Assembly (NCBI GenBank): GCA_026770025.1
Contig: JAMXDE010000012.1
Location: forward strand, 310,001 to 374,000
Length of the DNA: 64,000 nt
From: Craspedostauros australis
Taxonomy: Eukaryota > Bacillariophyta > Bacillariophyceae > Mastogloiales > Achnanthaceae
Reading direction: 5' to 3'
The translations under genes were made by a program, and so were the position numbers. The notes beneath the pieces were generated by a model, which made no database searches, had not been told where the DNA came from, and saw only the letters and a list, made by a program, of their open reading frames with translations. Shown in pieces: positions 17,401-60,529 of this stretch (position 1 is the first letter of the stretch; the number at the start of each line of letters is the position of its first letter).

Positions 17401-18027
17401 CTTGGGATACTCGTACGATGAGTGCAGGACTCCACCAAACGTATACTGTACTTGTGCTGCGTTGCAGTGTCTGCGGGGGACTTTCCTTTGCTCTTCCCTA
17501 TCCACAACTGCGCCGATGCTCGTGAAAATGAGATGTTGGTGTTGTTTCAATTTGTGCAGTTTGGTTTTGTGGCTCTCCGATCATCGTTTGTGTGCGTGTG
17601 CGTGTGTGCGTTGTGGAAGTGGAACCCTCGTCACGCCACATGTGATGCTGGTGATTCCCACACAAAGATACGAGCCGCGACAAACATCATGATTCCCCAA
17701 TTTGTTCCACGTGTCGGACGCAGCGTGATTCAAGAGTGTCCTTTTTTACACAAGACTCGTGTCGTGACTGATGTTGGATGAGAGTGTCCCATTCTGATCG
17801 TGGAATCGCTTCTCAGCTCTTCGCCACTCCTCCAATGACCACAAACTCGAACAGATTCGTCGAAACACGCTGATCGACCATGTTCACAAGTTGTTCCTTG
17901 GTATAGTAAGGCCATCAGATGTTGAGGTCACATTGGCAGTACATGCTTGCGAAACCTGCGAGCACACAACCGCATACCAATACACATCGGTGCCATACTA
18001 CTCGTTGTACGAATACAAGTGCTGACG
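17401..18027. promoter_or_regulatory. Divergent promoter region between the WW gene and PCYT2
   Basis: This stretch separates two head-to-head genes and must hold both promoters. No gene or strong motif is seen beyond scattered TACTCGTACGA-type words near 17410. Role inferred from position. Confidence 0.5.
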
Positions 18028-19509
18028 ATGAGAGAAGCCTGCGCGCAAGATGAGAATGGAGGCAAAGAAGTGCGAATCTTCGTTGACGGGGTCTTCGACC
18101 TGACGCATTACGGGCACATGAATGCCTTCCGATTGGCCAGGTCGCTGGGAACGCATCTCATCGTCGGCGTCAATTCGGAGGAGACTATCCGCCAATGCAA
18201 GGGTCCGCCGCTGTACGAGGAGCAGCATCGCATCGCCATGGTCGGGGCCTGCAAGTTCGTGGATACGGTCGTGCCGGACTGTCCCTACATCATGAACAAG
18301 GAATACCTGGAGTGGGTCTTTCGGGAGCACAACATCGACTACATCGTGCATGGCGACGATCCCTGCATCGTCAATGGTGAGGACGTCTACGCCACGGCCA
18401 AGCAGACTGGAAGATTCAAGAGCATACCCCGCACCGAGGGGGTTTCCACCACCGACGTCATCGGCCGGATCCTGGAGCTCGGCGACATGCAAGACGGCGC
18501 GCCGTGCGATGTGGCTTACCTTGGTCAGAAGTCGAGGTTCTTGGCGACAGGCCGTCTCCTTCGCCAGTTCGCCTCATCCAAGGAGCCGGCAGCGGGCGAT
18601 CGCGTCGCCTACATCGCTGGTTGCTGGGATATGTTCCATCCCGGGCATGTGGCCATCCTCAAGGCTGCCAAATCGGTACGAACAAATCGTCCCGCTACCC
18701 TGCATGGTACTCTCTTTCCACAGACTGTGGTACCATCCATTATCCCCAGTGATGTATTGTGCTGTGTTGTGCTGTGTTGTATTGTGGTGCAACGTTTGGT
18801 TTGGTTTGGTTTCCGCGACACCGGGGGTGTCTATCACATTGGCGTGCTACCGTACTCGCAGCCAAGTAGTTGGGAGAATGGCAGTGCCCGCGCATTGCGA
18901 ACTGCATCGAAGACCATCATTCATGATTTGAACCGCTTCTCGCCGCTCACCTCTTCCCGCCCCATCGTCCTTTTGTTCCATAACATTCTACTATCTATCT
19001 CATGCCACGCCACGGTGCGCCACCGTGCGGATAATCTGATCCAACACACCCGCATTTGGTACCCCAAACCAACAAAACAACAGCGATGCGACTACCTCAT
19101 CGTCGGCGTGTACGGAGACTCTTTGATCCAACAACGCAAGAAGAAAGGATTCCCAATCATGAACCTCAATGAGCGCGCCTTGAGCGTCATGGGTTGCAAG
19201 TTCGTGGACGACGTCGTGTTGGATCCATCCCCCACCATTTCCCCGCAGATGGTCGCTTCTCTCAGCTTATCGGAGGTCCTCCACTGCCCCACCAAGGATT
19301 CGATATACGGTCCCGACGATCCAATCTACACGACCGTCAAGATGGACAATGTCTTCCACTGTATGGACGCACCGACGACGATGCATGTGGGGGACGTCGT
19401 CGCAAAGATCGAAGCCAATCGAAGCGCCCTGCAGACGAAGTACAAGAAGAAGAGCGATGCGGAGAATGCATTTTACAGAGACAAGTATGGGCTCAAGGAA
19501 GAACCGTAA
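18028..19509 (+). CDS. PCYT2: CTP:phosphoethanolamine cytidylyltransferase
   Basis: Makes CDP-ethanolamine from CTP and phosphoethanolamine in the Kennedy pathway to phosphatidylethanolamine. Exon 1 is 18028..18675, the intron 18676..19083 (GTACGA to AACAG), exon 2 19084..19509; 357 residues. Two nucleotidyltransferase folds are visible: VDGVFDLTHYGHM with IPRTEGVSTTD in the first, and GCWDMFHPGHV continued by DYLIVGVYGD in the second. The second lacks a clear RTxGxSTT motif, as in animal PCYT2. MREACAQDEN is the chosen start; Met at 17947 is in frame but adds an unlikely leader. The 408-nt intron is a multiple of three and has no in-frame stop, so an unspliced transcript could encode a 136-residue insert between the second HxGH and its strand. 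Confidence 0.93.
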   Translation: MREACAQDENGGKEVRIFVDGVFDLTHYGHMNAFRLARSLGTHLIVGVNSEETIRQCKGPPLYEEQHRIAMVGACKFVDTVVPDCPYIMNKEYLEWVFREHNIDYIVHGDDPCIVNGEDVYATAKQTGRFKSIPRTEGVSTTDVIGRILELGDMQDGAPCDVAYLGQKSRFLATGRLLRQFASSKEPAAGDRVAYIAGCWDMFHPGHVAILKAAKSVRTNRPATLHGTLFPQTVVPSIIPSDVLCCVVLCCIVVQRLVWFGFRDTGGVYHIGVLPYSQPSSWENGSARALRTASKTIIHDLNRFSPLTSSRPIVLLFHNILLSISCHATVRHRADNLIQHTRIWYPKPTKQQRCDYLIVGVYGDSLIQQRKKKGFPIMNLNERALSVMGCKFVDDVVLDPSPTISPQMVASLSLSEVLHCPTKDSIYGPDDPIYTTVKMDNVFHCMDAPTTMHVGDVVAKIEANRSALQTKYKKKSDAENAFYRDKYGLKEEP

Positions 19510-20020: not shown

Positions 20021-23000
20021 TCAGCGAGTTGGCATCCTGATGCCGCCGCGACTTCCTTGCCCGTTGGGACTTCCGCCATCGTCGTCATTGTCGCTATCCG
20101 GTCTCTGCTTCAACCGGGGCCGTTTCCTCTTGTACCTTTTCCTTGGAGGTCCTTTGTTCGTGGTGCTTTCCACCACAATGTCACGCTCCTCTTCGCTGCT
20201 TGTTGCGGCCTTGTCACCGTCGGACTTGTCTGACTTGGAATCGGTTTCGTCCATGGAACTCGTGGAGCTTTCGTTTGGCTGAGACGACGTTCCAGATGAT
20301 GTCTCCGATCTGGACTGGGCAGACGTGTCAGTGATGGACACGGCATGGGACGAACGCCCGGCGGCCAGCGAGGAAAGGTTCTGCGACAGGGTTCTTGAAT
20401 TGTCCACGGGCAGCTTTGTGTCCCGCAGATCTGTGATCTTGACGCCGGTGGAGGATCGATTTAAGTTTGACGAAGCAGAACCATTGATGCCACCGGCACC
20501 GGGGTAGCCTTTCCGCAACTTCGACCCATTCTGGTCGATGGCATCGTCGTAGTTGCTGCGTAATGAGTTCAGGAAGTCAAGCAAAATGCCAGCCTCGTGA
20601 CTGTCAGGACTGGTGGGCTTGATGTTCGTGCCTTCCGTGATCTTCGATGTCCGTGCTTGTTTGCGCGGCGCCTGTGCATCGGATACCTTCCGCTTTTCGC
20701 TACGCTGCTCTGCTGCATCGACATGGGACTTTTGTGTGCGAGCAGAAGGCTTGGCAGGAGCGGCAGTTACAGTTACAGTTACAGCTGCAGCGAAATTGGA
20801 TGCGGGGGGAGCAACCGAGGTCGGGGTGGGCGGAGGTGCGGCGGGTGGTGGAATCGAAACAGGAACAGATGATGCCCGCGTTGTGGCACTTGGCAGGATT
20901 GGAGCTGTGGAGCTCTGTGGTTTCTCGTTTGGAAACTTCCCGATGGACTTCAGATGGGCTTGGTAGCTTTGTTGCAGCTGTTCTGACGGTGACAACTTAG
21001 GAACCGCAGGGATGGGGGGTGGGATGGGTGCAACGGCAGGCGCTGGTGTTGATGCCGAAGATACGTTGACCATCATGTTTGCCATCACGCCTGCGGCTGA
21101 TGCGGCGGCAGGAGGGGCAGGCGATGGTCCTGCGCTGGGTGCAGTTGGTGGAAGCGACTGTGGTCTATTCGCATGCGAGGCAGCGCTTGACGGCGGTTGA
21201 GCCAAAACTGGCTTGCTTGTTTGCCGATCGGCAACAGCCACTGGTTGAGGCCTGGCCGATGGTGTCGGTGCGGACGATGGCGCAGATGCCGACGCCGATA
21301 CCGCTGGCTGCGAGGCACCAGTTGCCTTGATATGCTCTTCGTATGCCAAACGCAGCTGTTGTTGCTGTTGTTGGATGTTGGCTGCCGCCAGTTGGTTCAG
21401 TGCGGGCCCCAATGACGCCGCTGCTTGCGCCCATGCAAGCGAAGTCACCGCGTTGTTGATTGCGTGGGCGTGGCCATTCGGTTGGTTGCTGCGTGAGAAA
21501 GTCGAATCGATTGGAGTGGAGCGAATAGGAATCAAAGGAGTGAATGCACACAAAATGGATAAGCTTTGGGTCATGATGTTCAATCGGGAGGCAACCACTG
21601 CGCAGACGAAGCATGATGGCAAAGCCAAGGTCAATGTTAAAGGTCGTACCTTGTTGGTAGTGTTGCTGCTGCGGCAGCAGCTGCTGCTACCGCGGCGGCT
21701 GCTTGAGTCGGATTCCTGGTGTTGGCTGCGGTGGGCACAAGCCACTGATTTTGGATTCTATTCAAGTTCCATGTGGACGCTGCGATGTTCATCGGAGCTG
21801 GTGCCACGGCGTTCTGACTTGGGATCTGCCCAGCTGCTGCCAATGCTGCCGTTGATTGCACTGTCGCAAGCTTCTTCAGCCAGGATGCAGTCGCTGCAGT
21901 TTGCAAGTTGTTCACGGCCGGGTACAGGTTCCCCAATGCAGATGGTTGCGCCAGCAACAGATCCTGCCGTCTGCTCGACAGCGGGGTGCCGTTCTGGTCA
22001 TGCTCGATTCTCATGCGGAACCGATGCTCCAGACGCTCCAGGTCGGCTCGTGCCATGTCGATTTCGGCCTGCGTCACCTGGGGTCTTTCCCTCAGATGGT
22101 AGACACGCCTGCCAAGGCAACATGCGCCGGTAAACTTCTTCGTTATCCTCATTGGGTCGCAATTCAGTTTCTCTGCCAGGTATGATCTCGGTGTGGATCC
22201 TTCCGGCAATGTGAGCAGGCCGATCCGTACGTAGTGGAGTATCTTGGATGTATACTCTTCCTCCTCAACCTAATGAAGCGAGGATTGCGTTCGCAAACAA
22301 CAGTGTTGTTTTGTTTGGCACACATATGCAGAAGCACAAGTGCGAAGACAAGCAACAACGACAAAATGAGGATGAAAGGCGATGGAAATGAGCGGGAAGC
22401 AAACCCGGAAGCGTACGTTTCATGTGCAGGCGCAGGTGACGGTGTTGATGAAAGAGAAGCAGAAGACAGACAAAGATGAAGAGGATGAAAGAGTGCAGAA
22501 GCAAGTAAGATCTTGATCGAAACGAAAGCTGGAATTCGCAAAGGCCGACGTCGTAGACACAGCAATGAAGTGGAGTCTCTATCTTTCGCGCTCTAGGCCA
22601 AGAAGCCAAGCAGGGTGGACACTTGGTTCTGTCCTCCTGATTCTCGGCTCCGCTTTCGCTTCCGTTGAACAGAGGCGTGGGTACCCAATGAGGGGTATCG
22701 GGGCTGGGCTTGGCTTGCATCCAACGGAGCCATTGGAGATAATGAGACAGCATCCTCCTGTTACAACTTCGGACGAGGCTCCATGCGCTCATCGTTGTCG
22801 AACATTCATAGAGAACCAACCATACATACAGCCCAAGCAGCTCAAACAACCACACGCGGCACAGCCACGAAGACACGCACAAGGAAAGACGGAGCGGTAC
22901 GCACACAAGCAAACAAGCAGCAACGTGTAAAACTTACGGTCCATTTCCCCTTTCTAAGCTTCGAACGATCCTTCTTCGAAGCCTGCTTCTTCTTTGACCC

Positions 23001-23477
23001 CTGTGTTCCGCTCGAAGCTGACAGCTTGCTCTGTTCCTTCTGTGACTGACTTTCGCCGCCAGGACTCTGGCGTGGCTGATGTGCCGGTTTTCCCTGCTGA
23101 GGCTTCTTCTTTTGTGGTTGTTGTTGTTGTTGTTGTTGCTGTTGTTGATGTCCTTCAGTTGATGAAGGTAATGACTGTCGAGGTGACAATGACGGTGATG
23201 GTCCCATACTCTTTGAAGCGCCATTGCCTCTTCCATGGCCAGACTGTGCTGGTGGATGTGGATGAGTAGGGGAAGAAGCCGACGGCGATGCCGCTGCTTT
23301 GATTGACGATGGAGTAGAGTCTGTTTGTGTCGTTGATGCGTTGCTGTTGTCGCTGGCTCTCTTCTTGGATGAAGACGATGTTGACAGCGAGGATGCCGCG
23401 ATCGCCCGAGACGGAGAGTCGTTGTCGGACACATCACCATCGTCATCATTGTTTGCTGCATGGGTTGACGAGCCCAT
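20021..23477 (-). CDS. KGKWT-EEE / LNCDPMRI domain protein, stramenopile-type, function unknown
   Basis: Three exons: 23477..22938, 22269..21650 and 21488..20021, separated by introns of 668 nt (GTAAGT donor, TTCATTAG acceptor) and 161 nt (GTACGA donor, CACGCAG acceptor); 875 residues. Residues 1-170 are Ser/Thr/Pro/Gln-rich with a poly-Gln run. At about 175-242 lies the one ordered block, assembled across intron 1: KGKWT, EEEEYTSKIL, IGLLTLPEG, RSYLAEKLNCDPMRITKKF and CCLGRRVYH. I recall this arrangement from many uncharacterised diatom and oomycete proteins. The remainder is Ala/Pro/Ser/Gln-rich and ends in a basic, possibly nuclear-localising segment (PRKRYKRKRPRLKQR). A nuclear regulatory role is a guess. 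A second in-frame Met at 23573 is possible. Confidence 0.82.
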
Positions 23478-27108: not shown

Positions 27109-29688
27109 ATGACCAATGAGGTCCAGAAACCGTTGTTTGCTGCGGCGTCGGCCACCCAGGGACAGAACCAGGTAAGTCGCTTTCAAAACCATCGCGCTGT
27201 TGGCATGTGCTTGCAGCTGATGCTTCAAATGCCATTGCGGAGTCACACGCGCAATCGCGACCGCTCTGCACACTTCCAGGTCTCTCCCATTTAGGAGTCA
27301 TTCGTTGGCCTGTTCGGCTCTGAAGTATGTCTGGAGTGTGGTGCCATACACACATCTCTGGATGGAATGACGCGGTGGAGGGGTCCTTCGTCTATTAGGA
27401 TTCCTCCGATGACTACGCACCATGCTAGGTCACCAGAAGCCAATCCCCAAACAATTGCCTCATGAGCTATTCTCCATTCCACTCTCCCCTCCTTCAATTC
27501 ATTTCATTTCTTTGCACACTCACCATCGCGTGCTCCAACTCGGCTATCTTCAATGGACTTCCGCCTTGTTGTTCGTGTGTATGACTACTTGGCTTCCCTT
27601 ACTCCGGCATGATGCGACTTCATTGCCCCACCATGCACAACATGCATGGTCAATGACACGAATGACACACATAACCTTCACGACCTATCCTTTGCAAATC
27701 ACAGGATGACTTCGACCTCAACGAGATCTTCCAGGACTACTTCATTAGCGAAGGCTTCGAGGACCCGTTGAACGCATACACCAGCTCGATGGCGAACTAC
27801 GGCGGTGGAGCAGCATCCATCGCCATCACTCAACAAGCTGTGGCAACAGCGCCAGCTGCAGCAGTTGCAATCGCACCCGCCCAGGTGCCCGGGATGGACC
27901 AACCTGCGGGAATTGCGATGGGACAACTCCAGCCAGCATCAGCACCAGTACCAACGCAGTTTGCACCCACAGGGGTGGCACCAGGGACGGCGATGGTCGC
28001 AGCACCAGCGGGAGTTGCCATCCCAGGACAGGCGATGGTGACGGGGCTAGCCGGCACCAATATTATGGCACAGCCAGCACCGCAACCGGCAGCGGTAGCC
28101 GGGGCCCCAGCACCGAACAAATTGCCAACGGGTGGAATCAAAACGACCTTCCATGCCACGGCAACGCAGCAGGTGCCACAGGTAGCCGCCGCACCAGGCA
28201 TCCAGCACTACCAGCACATCGCACCACCGACGAAACGCACCAAGATACAAGCTCCGTTGGCAGCGCCTGGTGCCGGAGGACTCACGAGCAGGCTTGGCGT
28301 TCCGTTCCCAGTCGCCGCCCCAGGTATGGCGAGGACGGGGATGGTGACACCAATGGGCGCCCCTCATCTGGGAGCACATACAGCAACAAGCGGCATCTCT
28401 CTGCCGATCGGTGTGGGCATTCGGCTTGGTGGAATGGGCGGCGTAGCACCAGCGACGGCACAAGCGGCGAGGACGAGCGCACCGGGACAGTTTCACATGT
28501 GGGGCGCACCGCAAGGGGGAGCCATGACAGATCAGGCCATCGCGGAACGTCGGCTGCGGAACCGCGAACACGCCAAACGCAGCCGCGTCCGCAAGAAATT
28601 CATGCTCGAATCGCTTCAGGAGCAGGTGCTGCAGCTGCAAAAGGAGAATCAACGACTCAGAACGCTCGTTCAGGACAATGTACCGGAACACGCGCAGAAG
28701 ATAATATCCGAATGCTGCCAGTCCAGCCCGCTGTTTGCAGACGGCGAGCTGGAAATAGAGGCGGAAACGAAACCAAAGCCCGCCACCACGCTCGTCAAGT
28801 CAGACTTTTCTCTCATGACCAGCCTCTCGTCGGGCCAGCAGAACTTCGTCCTCTCCGATCCCAGGTTACCAGACAACCCCATCGTTTTCGCGACGCCGGG
28901 ATTCTACAAGCTCACTGGCTACACGCAAGAGCAGGTGCTCGGACGCAACTGCCGCTTCCTCCAAGGTCCTGGGACCAACCCGAAGCACGTGGATATCATC
29001 CGCAAAGCGATTGCCACGGGAGCGGACTGCACGACGTGCATCCTGAACTACAAGGCAGATGGAACACCGTTCTGGAACCAGTTCTTCGTCGCGGCACTTC
29101 GTGACTCCGACAATTGCATCGTCAACTACGTAAGTGCATGCAGCTGTGGTGCAATGCAGATGAATGCCGTTGTTGTTGGTGTTGTTGTTGTTGTTGTTGT
29201 TTGTCCGATGACGAAGACGCCATGCGGGTGTGTGTTGGAGCGCAAGCTTCACTATAACTCGTATAGTATGTCTGCCCATTCGCCTGCGTTTGTGCATATT
29301 GGATGTCATACAAGTCATCACGTGCAAATGGCTGTCACACCGATGACTCATCCCACTCACAATCGCTCACTGCAATTATTTCCCCACCGTCATCATTTCA
29401 TCGTTTTATTTTATGCAACAACGCACAACAATGCAGGTTGGCGTGCAAACGGAGATTGAGCCTGAAATGGGAGCAAACGCACTGGAGGATAGAGTTAATG
29501 CTGTGTTGCCTCTGCAAAACAAGGAGGACGAGGGTATGGCGGAGGACGGAACACCCATCCTCGCTGCGCCAGCTGTTTCTGGCCAAGCGGCTGTTGCAGG
29601 AGCAGCACCCGCCGCCGTTCCCCAGCCTACGGCTGCACCTGCTGTCGCCACACAGCCGACGGACCCCGCCAGTATGAATGTATCGTAA
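27109..29688 (+). CDS. AUREO: Aureochrome: bZIP transcription factor with LOV blue-light sensor
   Basis: Blue-light-regulated nuclear transcription factor. Exons are 27109..27171 (MTNEVQKPLF...), 27705..29129 and 29437..29688; 579 residues. Introns use GTAAGT donors and CACAG / ATGCAG acceptors. Exon 2 opens with an acidic DDFDLNEIFQDYFISEG, likely part of an activation region, then a long Ala/Pro/Gly-rich stretch. The basic region RNREHAKRSRVRKK and leucine zipper lie at about 302-350. The LOV domain spans about 400-510, with GRNCRFLQG carrying the flavin-adduct Cys437 and the closing strand IVNY|VGVQTE restored by splicing of intron 2. bZIP before LOV is unique to aureochromes. The chain is longer than the roughly 350 residues usual for the family because of the Ala/Pro N-terminus and tail. 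Confidence 0.95.
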
Positions 29689-30754: not shown

Positions 30755-31600
30755 TCACCCACCTCCAACCGTGGGCGTGCTTGGTTTTGTCGGCGTTCCA
30801 GTGGCCGGCGTGATCGTGGGTATCGTGGCTGTGGATTGCATCGTCGTTGAGGATGCCGCCGTTGCAGCCGAAGTAACCGGCGCAGAAGACGAGACGAAGC
30901 GGCTTTTGCTCAGTCTCACGAGGATCTGATCGATGGCCAGCGACGCGCGCAGACCTTCCTCTTCAGCCTCCGTTCTTTCGCCGGGCGCCCTGCCGTCGAG
31001 GATCCTGCGACGTCGCACTGCCTTCTGATTCTTGAGCTGCTGCACGGGATCCACCGTGTCATCATCATCCGCGAAGTTCCAGCTGTAGTCGAAGGACGGC
31101 TGATACCGTGCACACTGCGAGAGCGCGGCGCTCGCGCCCGCCAATCCCTCGAGAGTCCGAGCGACGTTGGTCTTCATCAACGATCGCATGGAAGGGGATT
31201 TGTAAATGACACCTTCCACCACGTAGTAGATGCCCAGGACCTTGACGTCCGACACCCTGCGGCCCGTTCTGAGAACGTGGCGGATGGTATAGAGCGGCGA
31301 TGGCTGGATGTAGAAGGCGGGGTCGACGGGCGGCATCAACTCGTACTGCTCCCCCGTCAACCGCGTCAACGCTCTCGTGTACTCCTCCTCTGCTGCCTGC
31401 GGCGTCATGGGGATTCCGTTGGTGCCCTGCTGCACGAGAACGCCGATGGCGATGCCCTGCATCCCCAGCACCTCATTGCTCGTGTTGACCTTCGTGCGGA
31501 AGGGATTCAGCGGATGCAGGAAGTAATCCAGCACGTTCACTCTGGACAGCCCGAACCGCGCCAGAAAGACTGGATCGACGAAGGAGGCTGTATCTGACAT
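30755..31600 (-). CDS. MED6: Mediator complex subunit 6
   Basis: Head-module subunit of Mediator, which links transcription factors to RNA polymerase II in the nucleus. Single exon, 281 residues (human about 246). Family features in order: FLARFGLSRVNVLDYFLHPLNPF, with a shortened spacer before NEVLGMQG; LYTIRHVLRTGRRVSDVKVL; GIYYVVEGVIYKSPSMRSLM; then FDYSWNF. The last 50 residues are Ala/Thr/Pro-rich and not part of the domain. The start MSDTASFVDPVFLARF matches the usual short lead before the first conserved helix. Head-to-head with the MFS gene. Confidence 0.93.
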   Translation of the reverse strand: MSDTASFVDPVFLARFGLSRVNVLDYFLHPLNPFRTKVNTSNEVLGMQGIAIGVLVQQGTNGIPMTPQAAEEEYTRALTRLTGEQYELMPPVDPAFYIQPSPLYTIRHVLRTGRRVSDVKVLGIYYVVEGVIYKSPSMRSLMKTNVARTLEGLAGASAALSQCARYQPSFDYSWNFADDDDTVDPVQQLKNQKAVRRRRILDGRAPGERTEAEEEGLRASLAIDQILVRLSKSRFVSSSAPVTSAATAASSTTMQSTATIPTITPATGTPTKPSTPTVGGG

Positions 31601-32872
31601 CTTGTGCGAATCGTATTGCTATTACAGTATAATGGTATTGTACGAGTGGACAGAGAGGTTGGAGAGTGTTGTATCGCTGATACTACGACTGGCGCTTGAT
31701 ATGATTGACGTATAATAGATTGCAAGCCGCTTCGGAGCACTCGCACTCTATCAAACGATGATGATCGGTGAGGCGGCGGCAGATGCGATGCGGAATGATC
31801 GAGAGGGAACCGGCACAGGAACGCTGCCTTGCTTCATTGAGTGCTCCAGGAAGATTGTTGTTGTGTTTGGATCCCCCTTCTCTTCCACGAATTCGCGACA
31901 AAGTTCTACTTTTTGCCGCAGTCCTCCCAACATCGTGACAACCAAAACAAGAAACACGGCTGGGCCACCTCTCACATCCGCACAACTGGAAGGTGACGAT
32001 GAAGCCCTCTACTTGACGTATCCTCCCCTCGCTGTCATCGAGCTGAATCCATCAACCTCGATCTGACATTTGCGCATGTAATGGTGCAGTTTGTGCTCTG
32101 CATGTACGGGTATGCATGTGGAGTAGTCTGGATGTTTTATGAATCAATTCCACCATGTTTATCTAGACTTCTTATGTAGCCTGGAAGTCGTGGGTGGGCG
32201 GATCACAGGCCAGTCCCGTTTCCAACCGCAACGCTTCCGCTTTCACGTGTGGACGCGAGCCAGCCACGAACTAGACACTATCTATGATACGTGACTGAGA
32301 TCGCTTCATTCGTGTCCGTGTCCATCACACACGATGCGCTCGACCTCTTTGCGTGTGTGTGGTGTCTGATCAAGTATCGGTGGTTATGTGGTCATTGGTT
32401 GGAGCTGGAGATGGAGCTGGCCAAGGCTGATGAACGAAGCTGCCAGACCACTATTATGTATAGCAAGTTACTCATACTGTTAGTACATATTATACCATAC
32501 TCGTAGAACAGAGAATAGAAGAGAATAGAAGAGACTAGCAAAGCAAAGAATTGCACAACGCAAGCTACATTTGTGGAAAAGACAAAAGAGACAACAGCAA
32601 CAGAAGTGCCAACCAAAGCAGGGGAGAGCGATTTCCCATGCAGCCAACAAACACAGAGTAATCGCATTGGTGGGAGTGGATGGAGAGGGAAGTGAACACG
32701 CGGAACCAAGCCAGGCCACGACTGCGGATACTGCCACGCACAGCGCCTTTGCAGTCATCGCATACTCGTATGCATACGAAAGGAACGGCGAGCGTGGAAG
32801 GCAGAGTGCCAATATCGAGTAATACCTAGGGTACTTGGAGGTTGAGCGATTTGGGTTGGGAGGGGAACGAAC
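31601..32872. promoter_or_regulatory. Divergent promoter region between MED6 and the MFS gene
   Basis: 1.27 kb between two head-to-head genes. Open frames present are short and unrecognisable. AATAGAAGAGA is repeated near 32514-32536. Promoter role inferred from position. Confidence 0.45.
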
Positions 32873-47290: not shown

Positions 47291-48338
47291 ACCTTGGCTG
47301 ATGCTTGACAGCCAGAGTCGTGTAGGCATAGTACTTGACGAGTCATGGAGCACAGTGCGAGCATGGTCTGCCCGCTTTGACCATTGGATCTGATCTGAAC
47401 CTATGCTCGACTGACTGTGGATGATTTCGGCAACACCAATACTAACGCAAGCAAGGAACCAATATGAAATGAAATGAGACATCAAACACAACCACAATCG
47501 CTTTGCCGGAGATGTTGTAAGGATTCGAGGAGCTGCTGTTTGTCTTGTTGGAATGGACGATCAATGCACTGTTTTGTGAGGTTTGCGAATGTCCATCTAC
47601 CTCCGTTGTGCGTGGCATGCTTCTGATCGAAGAAGTCAAGAAAGCAGTGACATCGCAGTTGTTTGTATTTCTCCGCAACCCCGAGATGACGGATTGCGTG
47701 ACACGACTTCAACAAAACCTTCTGCTGAATGGATTTTCCAGCACAGCGTCGTGGCCGTTTGCGTGGCGTATGTCATGTGTTCTCTTGTGACCGTTGTTGG
47801 CGTTGTCGTGAGTGTTGGTGTTGGTGTTGGTGTGGGCGAGGAGAGTGTTCTCGTGCGGCGGATCAGCCTGTCTTGCGTCGGCGTTTGGATTGATTCCGTT
47901 TCGCGTTGTGGGCGTTGTTGCCATGTCATCCATTGCATCGTCATCGTAGCTTCATAGCATCGTGGTTGCGACTTGCCAACGCAGATACAATCCGTGTGCT
48001 ATACCCGTACAACAGAGTGCTGCATACTATTCTATAATACTATATCACCATCGTCGTCAAAGCCTGCCACGACTTCCTCATCAACACGTGCGCCAATACA
48101 CGCACCAATCCAACCGCACCAACCAAGAGAACACGCGGAGACAAGATCCTTTGTTGAGCGAAGGCGCATCGGAAGCTCATTCTCTGCTTGAGATTCTCCA
48201 TTCTCTGCTGTTCCAACAGAATACGCTGTGCAGCACAGAGTGAGTACTCTACCATACGATACTTGCAATCAAGGAGAAGATCCCCTTATTCGTAGTCGTG
48301 CTCGTATTCGTGCTCGTCTCAAACCCAAACAAACCACC
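47291..48338. other. Intergenic: V-ATPase C 3' flank and PP2C promoter
   Basis: No supportable gene. It contains a GTTGGT run (about 47808-47840) and a GAGTACTC palindrome (48241-48248) about 95 bases upstream of the next ATG. Confidence 0.5.
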
Positions 48339-50321
48339 ATGGCGAGAACGATGCCAGCGACGCAGCGACTGTCCTCGTTGGCTGTGGTTGCCGCAATTCT
48401 GTCGGCAAGCTCCTGCCTGATCCCCACAACGCACGGCTTCGTGCCGATGCACCACACAGCGCGCAGACACGTCGTGCTGTTCGACACCCCGGAGCCGCTG
48501 GCCACGCAGGGCGACTGGCAGGCCTTCCTGGACGAGGAGACGACTGGCCTCATCTACTACTTTGACACCGTCACGGGAGAAAGCCGATGGGAGCCGCCCA
48601 CGGAGTCCTTTCCCGCCGTCAAGCTGCCGCGTCGCAAGCAGCGCGCTGCCGACAAGCTGCGCACGGCCTACTTGGAGCAGCGCAAGCTCGAAGAGGAGGG
48701 GCAGGCCAGCAGCGTGGAGGATGCCGTCCTGGTGGCGGACGACGAAGCGGAGAAGGGCGGCGGCGGCTGGATGGGAGGCTTCCGACCGGACGTGTTGGCG
48801 GGCAACTGGAACAAGAAGGATTCCACGCCAGCACAAGCGGAGCTTCCCGCGTCGGCCGACAAAGCAGCGGCGGAGCAATCGGCATCCACGCAGGACGCCA
48901 ACGGGTCGACGGGAGGTGGCTTCCTTGGTGGCGTGTTCGGAAGCGTGGTGGCTGGCGCCAAGCAAGCGCCGGAAGCGGAACAGGCTGCTTCGGCGGATGC
49001 AACCAAGAATGCACCTGTCAACGGAGCAAAAGCCACAGAGGTGGATGCCGACGAGGCCAAGGCCAACGGCGTTGGTGGCATCCTGGGAGGTACGGCCTCG
49101 GGTCTCGGAGACATGCTCAACTCCCTGCGGGGACAGAAGCCCGATGATGAGGCTGCGTCAAAGGCCGCGGATGCCGCAGCAACAACACCGGCTGCATCTG
49201 CATCTTCCAAATCGACCGCCTCCAAGAAGGCGAAGGATCAAGGCGCTGCAACCGCCGTTGTAGAAGACAAGGAAGATATCAAGCCCAAGCTCCCAGCCTT
49301 CATGGGAAACATCTTCTCATCGGATGCAACTGCTCAGACAACGTCGGATGACAAGGTGGAAGACAAGCAGGCCGAGAAGAAGAAGAAGCAGAAGCAGAAG
49401 CAACAACCGAAACAGCAGAAGCAAAAGCAGGAACCGAAGCAACAACAGCAACAGCAACAACAACAAGAGCAGCAGAAACAGCAGCAGCAGAAACAGGTGA
49501 AGCAGCAAAAACAGAAGCAAAAGCAGCAGCAGAAAGAAGAGGAGGAAGAGGATCTGTTTGACGTGGAGTTTGTTCCGCGACCGATCAAGACGGAAATCGC
49601 CGGCTTCGTTTCGCCGCATCCAGAGAAGGTAAGGTGGGGAGGAGAGGATGCGATCTTCATCAAGGGCAAGAGTTTCGGCGTCTTCGATGGCGTGTCCGGT
49701 GCCGAGAAGGAGAAGGGATACCCGCTGTACTCCAAGACCCTCGCCAACGAACTCAAAAAGACCGTCGGCTTCGACAGTCTCTCCATCCCCGAAATGCGCC
49801 TGCTGCTCACGGAGGCGGCCGAAGTGGCAGACAACACCTCCACGGGCGCATCCACCGCGATCATGGCATCCATCAACAGCGAGGGATTCCTCCAGGTGCT
49901 CAACGTCGGGGACTCCGCCTGCGTCGTGGTGCGCGGCGACCGCATCACCGCCAGATCACGCGAGGTCAACCACTTCTTCGACTGCCCCTACCAGCTGTCG
50001 GACTACTCCCAGGATCGTCCCAAGGACGGATCCACGCTCTACATCGAGCTCGTGGCAGGCGACCTCGTCCTCATGGGTTCCGACGGCATCTTCGACAACC
50101 TCACCGACGACCAGATCATCGAGCTCGTCACCACCAAGCAGCAGCAACGATCGGGAACGCTCGCGCGCAAGATCGTCGACCTGTCAAGGAAGATCTCGCT
50201 CGACGTCGATGCCAAGACGCCCTACGCCAAGCAGGCGAGGTTGCGCGGTGACAAGGAGTATTCCAACGGCCTCGGAGGCAAGGTGGACGACGCGAGCTGT
50301 ATAGTGGTGTCCTGCAAGTAG
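48339..50321 (+). CDS. Plastid-targeted WW-PP2C phosphatase
   Basis: Predicted Ser/Thr phosphatase of the PP2C superfamily, closest in style to PPTC7/Ptc7-type enzymes. Single exon, 660 residues. The start MARTMPATQRL sits in an ACCATGG context. A signal peptide ends at TTHG with Phe34 just after, the mark of import into complex plastids (FVPMHHTARRH). A WW domain follows at about 58-92 (WQAFLDEETTGLIYYFD, ending RWEPP). Next are a low-complexity Ala/Gly region and a Lys/Gln run (about 344-403). The phosphatase domain fills about 423-660: GVFDGVSG, STAIMASIN, LNVGDSACVVV, GSDGIFDNLTDDQI and DDASCIVV, so the metal-binding Asp residues are present. WW plus PP2C in one plastid preprotein is unusual. 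Confidence 0.9.
   Translation: MARTMPATQRLSSLAVVAAILSASSCLIPTTHGFVPMHHTARRHVVLFDTPEPLATQGDWQAFLDEETTGLIYYFDTVTGESRWEPPTESFPAVKLPRRKQRAADKLRTAYLEQRKLEEEGQASSVEDAVLVADDEAEKGGGGWMGGFRPDVLAGNWNKKDSTPAQAELPASADKAAAEQSASTQDANGSTGGGFLGGVFGSVVAGAKQAPEAEQAASADATKNAPVNGAKATEVDADEAKANGVGGILGGTASGLGDMLNSLRGQKPDDEAASKAADAAATTPAASASSKSTASKKAKDQGAATAVVEDKEDIKPKLPAFMGNIFSSDATAQTTSDDKVEDKQAEKKKKQKQKQQPKQQKQKQEPKQQQQQQQQQEQQKQQQQKQVKQQKQKQKQQQKEEEEEDLFDVEFVPRPIKTEIAGFVSPHPEKVRWGGEDAIFIKGKSFGVFDGVSGAEKEKGYPLYSKTLANELKKTVGFDSLSIPEMRLLLTEAAEVADNTSTGASTAIMASINSEGFLQVLNVGDSACVVVRGDRITARSREVNHFFDCPYQLSDYSQDRPKDGSTLYIELVAGDLVLMGSDGIFDNLTDDQIIELVTTKQQQRSGTLARKIVDLSRKISLDVDAKTPYAKQARLRGDKEYSNGLGGKVDDASCIVVSCK
49372..49548 (+). 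repeat. CAG/CAA/AAG run encoding a Lys/Gln tract
   Basis: Low-complexity coding repeat giving alternating Gln and Lys blocks between the WW half and the phosphatase half of the plastid PP2C protein. Confidence 0.9.
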
Positions 50322-55914: not shown

Positions 55915-58806
55915 CTAATCACCGCTTTGTTGGTGATGATGGCTGACGTCGAATGGTGTGCTGGGATGGCCGGAGACTGTTGATGTTCCCCAAGGGCTAT
56001 CAGAAAAGCCAAGGAGTGAGGTGGTTGCAATGCCGGATCCGGGGCTTGCACCTCCTAGCCCTATCGGTGTCGTTGTACCGGGGATCCCCCAATCTGTGAC
56101 GTTGGTGCTGATGATATCGCCACCACCGCTATTGTCGGCGACGGCGTTGTTGCTGCCGCTGCTTCCCCACGTCGACCCCGCTCCGAATGCGAAGATGTTG
56201 CTAGTTGCCGCCGAGGCCGCCTGAGTTCCGAACGCGGGCGACTCGAGTGACAACGATGAGAAGTTGACATTGTTCAAACCCTTCACGGGAGTGCTGTCTG
56301 GTGGGCGGAGGGTGGACTCCATGTGGATCGTTGGGTCAAAGCCGAGCCCAAGCTCGAGGTTGCCATCGTGCTTTTGAGCCTTTGTGGTGTCATGGTACGG
56401 ATGTTGTCGTTGTTGTTTTGTCAAAGTGAGGGGGCGATGGTCGTTGGTTGTGGTTAGAGTCAGGGGTTGAAAGCCAAGCCAATTCTCAAGGTCGAATCTC
56501 AACGGAGTCATCAGCACAAGTGCCATGTTGGCGTGCGTCGTTTTACTTACTGAGTTGGTGTGCGGATTGGAGTGGAAGCTGCTGCCATCACTCATGGTCT
56601 CTGCTGGTGATTTGCGGCTGGGCGTGTGGACAGATGAAGCAACACTTGCCCCGCCTTCCCCGTTACCAATGCCATAAACGTTTGCAGTGTGATTACTGTC
56701 GTTGTTGCCGCTACTCTCGCCATTGTTACTGGTGTTGTTGTTGTTGTTGTTGATGATGATGCTGCTGGTACTGTTGATGGGGGTTGGAGCCGTCGCGTCC
56801 GCCATGCGTTTGTCCGGCGCTTCCGACATTACGGACGACGCGAGAACCTCGTCCAAGCCTGGCATGGGCTGGGTAACAGTTGGCTTGGTTGGTGTTGTCA
56901 CAAGAGTGGAAGTGGCAGCAAGTGCTGCCTTGCTCGGTGCCCATTCCTTCGCCGTCGCCTGAAGCATTGGCGAGTCGTCCACTCCAGTGACTAGCTCGAT
57001 CTTTTCATTCGGTTTCAACCAGGCCACGTCTTGTGGGAAGTCAGCAGATTGCGCATCATCGCCAGTTCCAGCTCCGCCGAATTCCATGTCGCCGTCGGCA
57101 GCATCGTGACCAGGTAGACCAGCGGAGAAATCGATGCAGTGAACCCCTTCCGAATCGGGTCCGCCATATTGCTCAATGACCTCCAGTAGCTCATCGTACG
57201 CGGATTCATTCTTGGTTCGCCCACCCGGGACGCTATGCGAACCATACCCCAAGTCTCCATCGCATCCATCGACGCAGTAAAATACGGCCTTCTTCTCACG
57301 CGCAAACATCACCCCACAGGTCCTTGGCAGCTTCCTTTGCTTGTTCAAGTCCTTTTTCTTCTTTCCGGACTTCTGCGAAGAGTTGGAGCCTGACTTCGCT
57401 TTCGCCTTTGTGTTGCCGCCATCATCTTTCTTGTTCTTGGCGTCCTTGTCGGAAGTTGGTTTGTCGCTGGACTGAGCTTGGCCGTGCTTGGATTCCCTGT
57501 CGCGATTCTGCTTTGCTTTCTTCTTCTCCTTCTTCGTGCGACCACCGTTGGCCTCCTGATTCTGCTTGACAGCGACGAGCGAGCCGCTCTTTGGGTCGTA
57601 GAGCATCCTCTGCCCTTCCATCGCTCTGCCTCCACGACTTCTATCCTCATAACTTGATAAGTGGATGATGCCATCCGGCAGCATGCCTGCCGGGTTGCTC
57701 GCACTGTTGCTGACAAAGCCTACGTTGCTCGGAACGTTCCCTTGGGTGTTGTCATTCATGTGCGTTTGGGTGTTCCCGCCAACGAAGGTTCCGGTATGAG
57801 CGTTCGAAGGTGCGAGTTCCACGTGGCTCCTGGCATTGGCTTCGTTGCGAGTTGCAGTCACGGACGCTTTGTTACCACCGCTGCTGCTGCTGCTGGGTTT
57901 CGCACCTGTCCATGCCGAAGCCTTTTGACTGGTGTTCGCGCCCGTGCCCTGTTTTTGGTTTGCCTTCTGGCTCTTCGATTCTGCAATCTTCACAGGATCC
58001 ACCTCCCTGAACGTCCCCGTCAATGGATCATAGAGTGTCGGCTGACGGGATGGTGCGTTTCCTGCCGGCTCCTCTCGAGGCGCATGCGTCGCTGATCTGG
58101 TCGGTGAGTGCGATGGGTACTGTGATCTTCCATTGCTGCTGCCTGCTTTGTGAGGCAGGCCTTTGGCCATTCTTCCGGAATCCTGATTCGCTGCTGTCCA
58201 CGTGACATCTGCGCGGCTCTTCAGCTTTGAGGCGCTGCTGCTGCTGTTGTTGCTGTTGCTGCTTGTGTTTTTTGGCTTGTTGGTGTAACTGCTGCTGGAG
58301 TTGCCTTTGTTCGTAAGATCTGATGAAGTGGTGCTGTCTGAGCGTCTCTCCAAGCTCCTCCATGCATCAGGGGTTGGCTTCGATTCTCCAAACGAACGGT
58401 ACATGTGTTCACCGCCCTGTGTTCGGAACGATGGATTCGATGATCTGTTCCAAAGGCTGCCCGATGCTGATGGTGCGTTGGATGCGCTGCCCGATGATGA
58501 TCGCTTGTTGGAAAGCCTGGTTAGACCATTGATCGCGCCCGGCTGTGATCCTCCGAGGTTTGCATGCAATGAGGACAGGCTCCCAGGCGCAACGTACGCG
58601 GCTCCGCTTGTGTTGGCTGTTCCATGTGGTCGAGATTGTCTGTTCAGGCTCCTTTCGAACTTATTCTTTGGAGATGTAGCGCTACTCGTACCGAAGGCTG
58701 ATGAATGTGCAGCAGCTCTGTTGAAGGATGGAGAAGACGAGGATGGTGATGGTTGTGATGATGGTGTTTGCGACAGCGAAGACGGTTGGAAATGCGACCC
58801 TTTCAT
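55915..58806 (-). CDS. Large Ser/Asn-rich protein with two LYDP motifs and a PAM2-like motif
   Basis: Unrecognised protein, 963 residues as one open frame. Mostly disordered (Ser, Asn, Gly, Lys). Two related short motifs stand out: LYDPLTGTF (about residue 255) and LYDPKSGSLV (about 400). A Lys-rich stretch precedes an ordered block at about 494-550 (RTCGVMFAREKKAVFYCVDG and YDELLEVIEQYG). At about 612 the sequence MLQATAKEWAPS resembles the PAM2 motif that binds the MLLE domain of poly(A)-binding protein, with Trp in place of the usual Phe. An RNA-granule role is therefore conceivable but unproven. Inside the frame, 56550..56380 begins with GTAAGT and is 171 nt, so it may be an optional intron, although its acceptor (AAAG) is weak. 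Confidence 0.75.
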   Translation of the reverse strand: MKGSHFQPSSLSQTPSSQPSPSSSSPSFNRAAAHSSAFGTSSATSPKNKFERSLNRQSRPHGTANTSGAAYVAPGSLSSLHANLGGSQPGAINGLTRLSNKRSSSGSASNAPSASGSLWNRSSNPSFRTQGGEHMYRSFGESKPTPDAWRSLERRSDSTTSSDLTNKGNSSSSYTNKPKNTSSNSNNSSSSASKLKSRADVTWTAANQDSGRMAKGLPHKAGSSNGRSQYPSHSPTRSATHAPREEPAGNAPSRQPTLYDPLTGTFREVDPVKIAESKSQKANQKQGTGANTSQKASAWTGAKPSSSSSGGNKASVTATRNEANARSHVELAPSNAHTGTFVGGNTQTHMNDNTQGNVPSNVGFVSNSASNPAGMLPDGIIHLSSYEDRSRGGRAMEGQRMLYDPKSGSLVAVKQNQEANGGRTKKEKKKAKQNRDRESKHGQAQSSDKPTSDKDAKNKKDDGGNTKAKAKSGSNSSQKSGKKKKDLNKQRKLPRTCGVMFAREKKAVFYCVDGCDGDLGYGSHSVPGGRTKNESAYDELLEVIEQYGGPDSEGVHCIDFSAGLPGHDAADGDMEFGGAGTGDDAQSADFPQDVAWLKPNEKIELVTGVDDSPMLQATAKEWAPSKAALAATSTLVTTPTKPTVTQPMPGLDEVLASSVMSEAPDKRMADATAPTPINSTSSIIINNNNNNTSNNGESSGNNDSNHTANVYGIGNGEGGASVASSVHTPSRKSPAETMSDGSSFHSNPHTNSVSKTTHANMALVLMTPLRFDLENWLGFQPLTLTTTNDHRPLTLTKQQRQHPYHDTTKAQKHDGNLELGLGFDPTIHMESTLRPPDSTPVKGLNNVNFSSLSLESPAFGTQAASAATSNIFAFGAGSTWGSSGSNNAVADNSGGGDIISTNVTDWGIPGTTTPIGLGGASPGSGIATTSLLGFSDSPWGTSTVSGHPSTPFDVSHHHQQSGD

Positions 58807-60529
58807 GACGGAGCTCGCCGTTTGCAGCCGTCAGCGCCTCTGTTCTCTAAGTTTGAATCCAGATCAAGAAGGTCTGCTCAACTCGCAGATCTTGCAACGC
58901 GTTGTGGTCTCAAGATGTCGGTTGATCCTGACGATCCTGATGAAGGTGATGATGGAAGTATGGAGATTCCGTTGGTTGGTGTGGATTTCTGCTCCAACTG
59001 CCCACCTCGACGAACCCGGCAGCCAGCACCAGCGCCACCAGTAACTTTGTTTTGATGTGCTGCCTCCGGAAGCAAGGATGCGCCTTCAATCTCCAGCAAT
59101 CAAGCAGCAAGGCCAGGGATGGTCGAATCGATCGATCGATCGATTAACCGATCAACCTCCTGCTGATGGTAACCAGCAAGTATAATAGAAAGATGGAGAG
59201 CAAGGGCTCTGTTCTGAGAGTCCCGCTCCGTGACAATCGATCGTCCGGTCCCCTCTCTTGCGCCCCCCATGCAAAAGCAATGCGGTGCGATGCGATTTAC
59301 TCCCGAGGAGTATAATATGATATGATGTTGATATGATCGACACACTGCAATGGCCTGCCGTATTGTGCGGACCGTTGCTCGGATGCAAGCCTTTTGCGTC
59401 AAGGGATGACGACCGAAGGGGGTTGTCGATGTCGATGTCGATGGCGATGTGGGCGTGTGTTCTCCCACTGTTGTCGTCTCGGAGACCAATCCTTGCACAC
59501 AGTCTACACGCACAACACAGAATTTATCGATTCGACACAAACACGATTTCTCGGTGCGACTCTCGGCTCGTGCGGACCAGCGCGTGGCTCTCCCCCTTCG
59601 AGCACAAAAACGAAAGGCAACAACAGCGACAACAACGGGAACTCTGTTGGATCGATTGGATGAGACTGTTTCAGTCCCGAACAGTCACTACGGAAACTAG
59701 AACAAGAAACATGGAGAAGCGTTGCAACCAACGCGGTGAATTCCACGAACACTCCAACAGATGATTACCAATAGATTGAGCAAGAGAAAGAACGTACGCT
59801 GCGAGTATGCACCACGCGCATGGAATTTCCCCAGATGTATACATTAGAGCAGAGCAGAGTAGAGTGAAGTGGAGTACTCCAGATTCTCAAGTATTCCATA
59901 ATGCGTGCAAATATTGAGTTGGTAGACAACCGTCGCGGGTAAGGCCCCATGCATGCGGGTAACGTACTCCTTATGCTCTGCAGAGTACTGCAGCACATTC
60001 CATCAGAGGCCAGTCCAACGTGTCTCAAGCAAGTATGCCTTCCTTTCTTTCCAATGCTATCCTTCTGCGGCGATTACAAAAGCAGAACGAGGATAAGAAC
60101 ACTTGTGCTAATACAAAGCCGCAGCCTCGTGAATGGTACACTACCGTGGAGTATATGTAACCTCCATACGCGAGACATGGAAACCAGCATTTGTTTTCGT
60201 TTGCACTAGGGCAGACGAAAGAGGGGAGCATCGGTGGAAGCAACCGACGCTGCCATGGCCTGGGCGATGATGGGGCGGCTCATTTCGTAGGGACAGAAGT
60301 GAAGCTAACTCAGCTTTGTTTGTATCATTTAGTAGGAGTAGAGTGGAGGATTGATGTTTGGGAGAGTTAACCGTAGATGATCGACCAAGGCTCGTTGGGT
60401 TGCAGTCTTTGTTCGGGAGTTTTTACAATGCAACCGCCGATTGGGGCACGATTAGCACAAAGTTCGCTGGTGCTTGGATCATGCTTGAAGGACGACCGCC
60501 AGGCGGGAGAGGGTGCGACACCGCATCCT
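58807..60529. other. 1.7 kb intergenic: promoter of the LYDP gene and delta-COP 3' flank
   Basis: No supportable gene. It contains a GATC repeat (59119-59142) and GGAGTACTCC (59871-59880). Confidence 0.5.
59119..59142. repeat. (ATCG)n short tandem repeat
   Basis: About five units of ATCG in non-coding sequence. Confidence 0.85.

Follow-up and report, generated by a model that had tools for sequence, protein, structure and literature searches.

Predicted gene and its conserved block

What does a gene of the diatom Craspedostauros australis encode when its one conserved block falls under no family name, and does that block mark a set of nuclear regulators? The gene lies on the minus strand of a window of 64,000 nucleotides (nt), the whole stretch of contig JAMXDE010000012.1 that was analysed, and all coordinates given here are positions in this window. 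Spliced in silico, it spans positions 23477-20021 in three exons separated by two GT-AG introns, and it encodes 875 residues followed by a stop codon. The conserved block occupies residues 176-238 and is carried by eight loci of the 74.8-Mb, 90-contig genome. We estimate at roughly 0.55 the probability that the product regulates genes in the nucleus and that its small block binds DNA or chromatin, where both DNA contact and nuclear location are inferred.

Three observations underlie the predicted gene model: consensus splice sites, open reading frames, and the agreement of the joined block with copies at other loci that no intron interrupts. If the introns are left in, the reading frames of exons 1 and 2 run into stop codons at 22842 and 21637, respectively. 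Because KGKWT closes exon 1 and VEEEEYTSKIL...RRVYH opens exon 2 (Table 1), the two halves of the block are joined only once intron 1 is spliced out. The original prediction, that the block is seen only after removal of this intron, is thus correct for the junction, but the longer part is readable in exon 2 alone. It had also described the rest of the protein as disordered. Judged by composition (126 Ser, 123 Ala, 85 Pro and 64 Gln, against 5 Trp and 5 Phe), the protein is likely disordered outside the block, but a crude residue scale does not set the block apart, as residues ~281-440 and 681-760 are no more disorder-prone. The predicted basic C-terminus was recovered as a cluster at residues 836-847, and the region preceding the block is also basic. 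Finally, as far as these searches reach, the family was rightly called uncharacterised: neither Pfam nor NCBIfam gave a family name for the block.

No description of the block was found in the open-licence literature, a scope that most subscription papers fall outside. No relatives of the block were found in the sets viral_contigs and phages, and the search of prokaryote genome_contigs returned a single 15-residue match. Similar blocks may recur in many diatom and oomycete proteins, as was presumed in the original prediction; among eukaryote sequences, the searches covered this genome and the PDB.

A family of at least eight loci

In addition to the window gene, the block is present at C7:683k, C15:439k, C10:1099k, C10:1759k, C10:1764k, C2:3055k and C6:1646k. 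A 96-residue block query against the genome retrieved other loci at 1.1e-22, 1.8e-22, 2.9e-12 and 5.1e-5, and the weaker loci were confirmed by searches with other family blocks. Results obtained with four different family blocks as queries converge on the same eight loci: two queries recover all eight, the third recovers six, and the fourth gives six matches, five of them family loci and the other on C36. The latter was rejected as spurious. Because the genome search takes exons singly and scores best candidates only, the family numbers at least eight. The block that had been noticed in this gene is therefore real and more than a chance resemblance, since it recurs across eight loci.

Identity to the window block ranges from 22 to 57% in the eight-member alignment, while pairwise identity is 30-71% among the seven members of a trimmed alignment, in which the C7 protein is the nearest relative of the window protein (60% block identity). 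The family falls into three branches: four CDPMRI/CAPMRI proteins including the window protein, three KSKQSRLTKK/CKSSRLTKK proteins, and one divergent C6 protein. When branch profiles (built from four, three and one sequences, respectively) were compared pairwise, the first two branches were linked at 98.6% over 93 columns, and the C6 protein was linked at 96.9% to the CDPMRI branch and at 89.0% to the KSKQSRLTKK branch.

Family similarity extends past the block to about residue 269 of the window protein. In a seven-member alignment (A4) that leaves out the C6 protein, the invariant columns are R2, G4, W6, T7, E10, G24, G31, L38, L42, R48, K51 and K52. The R, K and K of the basic RxxKK stretch are thus invariant in seven of seven members; the C6 protein carries neither these three residues nor the W. 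Downstream of the block, the window and C7 proteins have two motifs in common, SWL and EAxxLLxFLxSLR. When all eight loci were scanned for these patterns, EAxxLLxFLxSLR occurred in no other member, whereas SWL turned up once more, in a frame of L034. Two members of the KSKQSRLTKK branch, L033 (C10:1759k) and L034 (C10:1764k), lie ~5 kb apart on opposite strands with blocks 71% identical, and form an inverted duplicate pair.

A Myb-like first helix motif

The start of the block had been likened to that of a Myb/SANT helix, and the W-T-x-E-E/D motif of helix 1 is indeed present in seven of the eight members, C6 lacking the W. We compared the block by hhalign with a profile of the genome's own Myb repeats, aligned from 34 of the 49 places where PF00249 was found (E up to 10). 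The first 16 columns score 26.2, above all of 100 column shuffles (best 15.8) and above the reversed block (9.7). Searches of the PDB point the same way: the eight-member profile matches c-Myb (E 0.0037, a sum over three repeats that each stand at E 18 or worse singly) and SNAPC4 (E 0.017) through its first ~30 columns, and the seven-member profile without the tail matches them at 0.027 and 0.031, whereas its reversed control yields unrelated matches from 0.22. Up to E 10, Myb-type entries make up 12 of 12 matches of the eight-member profile, six of eight of the seven-member profile and none of four in the reversed control.

The second half of the block tells otherwise. It gives no signal against Myb in hhalign, where 10 of 150 shuffles reach or exceed the real score. 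The PF00249 model matches none of the eight members and neither of two hand-made consensus sequences, and none of the eight loci is among the 49 genomic places. A Myb/SANT domain as such is therefore not supported, for want of both a PF00249 match and a signal over the WxxIAxxLxxRTxxQCxxRW region. At the level of sequence, the Myb likeness of the block is limited to the first helix motif, and 16 columns are so short that the motif could stem from convergence.

A first alternative concerns origin: the block might share descent with Myb repeats as a highly diverged Myb/SANT domain with a longer loop between helices 1 and 2 and the tryptophans of helices 2 and 3 lost, a reading that overlaps with that of a nuclear regulator. 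Helix 1 agrees with it, and visual inspection suggests that hydrophobic residues in TLRxFLSxxLxCDPMRIxKKF are spaced much as in the Myb region cited above. However, the best ungapped placement is not where the eye put the match, and a forced global alignment reaches a probability of 14.8%. Together with the failure of the second half to exceed shuffles and of the Pfam model to match, these results make such descent rather improbable.

Relatives and probable role

Regulator-type domains were matched in four of the eight family proteins, at weak to borderline scores. The KSKQSRLTKK/CKSSRLTKK proteins (L033, L034 and L035) show a C-terminal match to bHLH-MYC_N (PF14215, GAF-like), at E 4.5e-6 to 1.3e-5 and 26-27.5 bits in their frames, below the cut-off of 30.2. 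A genome-wide PF14215 scan at E up to 1 returned exactly these three places, one of which reaches the curated cut-off. One of these relatives also matches GAF_2 (0.0079) and, weakly, EGL1 in the PDB (E 0.54). A basic helix-loop-helix (bHLH) domain was not matched at E 1 in their open frames, other exons lying outside that scan. The fourth protein is that of C6, which matches Agenet (PF05641, Tudor-like) at E 0.0013, below the curated cut-off. The window protein itself matches neither PF14215 nor Agenet.

N-terminal of the block, L033, L034 and L035 also have in common a CPAC motif, followed by a P-M/L-x-F stretch; together these are perhaps half of a zinc site. L035 has a PHD-variant match at E 0.02, below the cut-off.

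Since domains of the kind seen in gene regulators are matched in some members, the family probably consists of nuclear regulatory proteins. This reading is supported by the existence of an eight-locus family, by those domain matches, by the resemblance of the first helix motif to Myb, by the basic stretch conserved in seven of eight members and by the basic clusters. The suggestion of a DNA-binding or chromatin-linked family is thereby kept in part: it agrees with the regulator- and chromatin-type domains of the relatives, weak to borderline as their scores are, but not with a Myb/SANT domain proper. The block would form one small helical domain of ~65 residues, in which the WT-EE helix is joined by a G-L-L loop to a second helix, centred on TxRxxLxxxL, and closed by the basic stretch CDPMRIxKKF. 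Another helix would come after it, and long Ser/Ala/Pro/Gln-rich arms would flank the whole. The protein would enter the nucleus by means of its basic clusters, the block would bind DNA or nucleosomes with the basic MRIxKKF stretch as a putative contact surface, and the arms and the EAxxLLxFLxSLR motif may recruit partners.

Structure models bear on a second alternative, in which the block serves as a module for contacts between proteins, instead of binding DNA, and the family members are co-regulators. SANT domains bind histones; the block could bind histones or co-regulators in a SANT-like manner, or serve in dimerisation through the helix at residues 245-269. AlphaFold, given a 94-residue fragment of exon 2 as its only sequence and hence without KGKW, produced a model with a predicted local distance difference test score (pLDDT) of 74.7 and helices at 2-15, 27-35, 44-59 and 67-93 in fragment numbering. 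The conserved stretch after the block is modelled as the last of these, 27 residues long, which favours an interaction module. The 63-residue core, likewise modelled as a single sequence that lacks KGKW, did less well (pLDDT 53.6, helices at 2-19 and 27-35 only), and the models are too weak to fix the fold. PDB fold searches with the 94-residue model were weak and gave no significant match; PBX1 ranked 33rd at E 4.2 in the Foldseek search, which speaks neither for nor against a homeodomain. In the CDPMRI branch the basic stretch has little positive charge (net +1 to +4), which also suits a protein partner, but it reaches +6 in the KSKQSRLTKK branch, and the invariance of its R, K and K in seven of seven members likewise speaks against this reading. 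We consider the interaction module rather unlikely. A cytoplasmic or organellar scaffold, in which the block has another, unguessed function, would suit a protein so rich in Ser, Ala, Pro and Gln but not the bHLH-MYC_N and Agenet matches of the relatives or the basic clusters, and is improbable.

Gene features and other genes

Table 1. Features of the predicted block gene in the window.
Feature	Position	Strand	Remarks
Exon 1	23477-22938	-	residues 1-180; Ser/Gln/Pro-rich; basic stretch, then KGKWT at end
Block, first part (LRKGKWT)	22938-22958	-	residues 174-180
Intron 1	22937-22270	-	668 nt, GT-AG, phase 0; splits block between KGKWT and VEEEE
Exon 2	22269-21650	-	opens with VEEEEYTSKIL
Block, remainder (VEEEEYTSKIL...LNCDPMRITKKF...CLGRRVYH)	22096-22269	-	residues 181-238
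Conserved stretch after block (VTQAEIDMARADLERLEHRFRMRIE)	22003-22077	-	residues 245-269; helix in model
Motif SWLKKLATVQ	21856-21885	-	echoed in C7 paralogue
Intron 2	21649-21489	-	161 nt, GT-AG
Exon 3	21488-20021	-	Ala/Pro/Ser-rich
Motif EAGILLDFLNSLR	20558-20596	-	echoed in C7 paralogue
Basic cluster RKRYKRKRPRLK	20108-20143	-	residues 836-847; possible nuclear localisation signal

The tail-to-tail neighbour of the block gene is a cytidylyltransferase-like gene (17926-19506, plus strand). Further along, a gene at 27675-29456 (plus strand, with an apparent intron from ~29130) matches bZIP (3.6e-8) and then PAS (6.4e-15), the latter with the letters GRNCRFLQ, which we take to be a LOV domain motif. 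By this order of bZIP and LOV, the gene is probably aureochrome-like; aureochromes are described as lineage-specific factors of photosynthetic stramenopiles (PMC4827209). The window also contains a MED6 mediator subunit (30758-31618, minus strand, 1.9e-17), a single open frame with a WW domain and a PP2C match (48192-50318, plus strand), and an open frame of 971 residues without a Pfam match at 0.001 (55918-58830, minus strand). Elsewhere, the genome holds 61 matches to the light-harvesting family. One translated protein best matches FCPI-7 (6ly5) and Lhcr11 (6l4u), entries from the diatom Chaetoceros gracilis. Together with the aureochrome-like gene, these matches fit a diatom host.

Comparison with known systems

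The block shares with Myb/SANT (PF00249) its first helix motif, G-[KR]-W-T-x-E-E, and is likewise small and basic, but it lacks a conserved W in its later part, has a longer spacing with a G...G loop, and carries CDPMRIxKKF or SRLTKKM at the place of Myb's recognition helix, and is missed by the model. With Agenet, a domain of the chromatin-reader type, the link is the weak match of the divergent C6 relative, whose score is under the curated cut-off and which has no counterpart in the window protein. Plant MYC/EGL1-type bHLH factors carry the bHLH-MYC_N domain that three relatives match, although not the window protein. In plants this domain is N-terminal of the bHLH domain, whereas in the relatives it is C-terminal of the block.

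Microalgal transcription factors have been catalogued, and the words GAF, DUF and RWP-RK are missing from the main text of that catalogue (PMC4827209). It is conceivable, though doubtful, that the block represents a separate class of DNA-binding domain, parallel to Myb but specific to its lineage, and that diatoms combine it with a MYC-type GAF-like domain, which would make a MYC-like factor with its bHLH replaced by the block. If so, a whole transcription-factor family would be absent from diatom regulator catalogues. As such lists are built from known domain models, an unlisted family would be a concrete gap: should the block bind DNA, known-domain searches would have missed at least eight regulators in this genome, including three that carry a sensor or partner domain of the MYC type.
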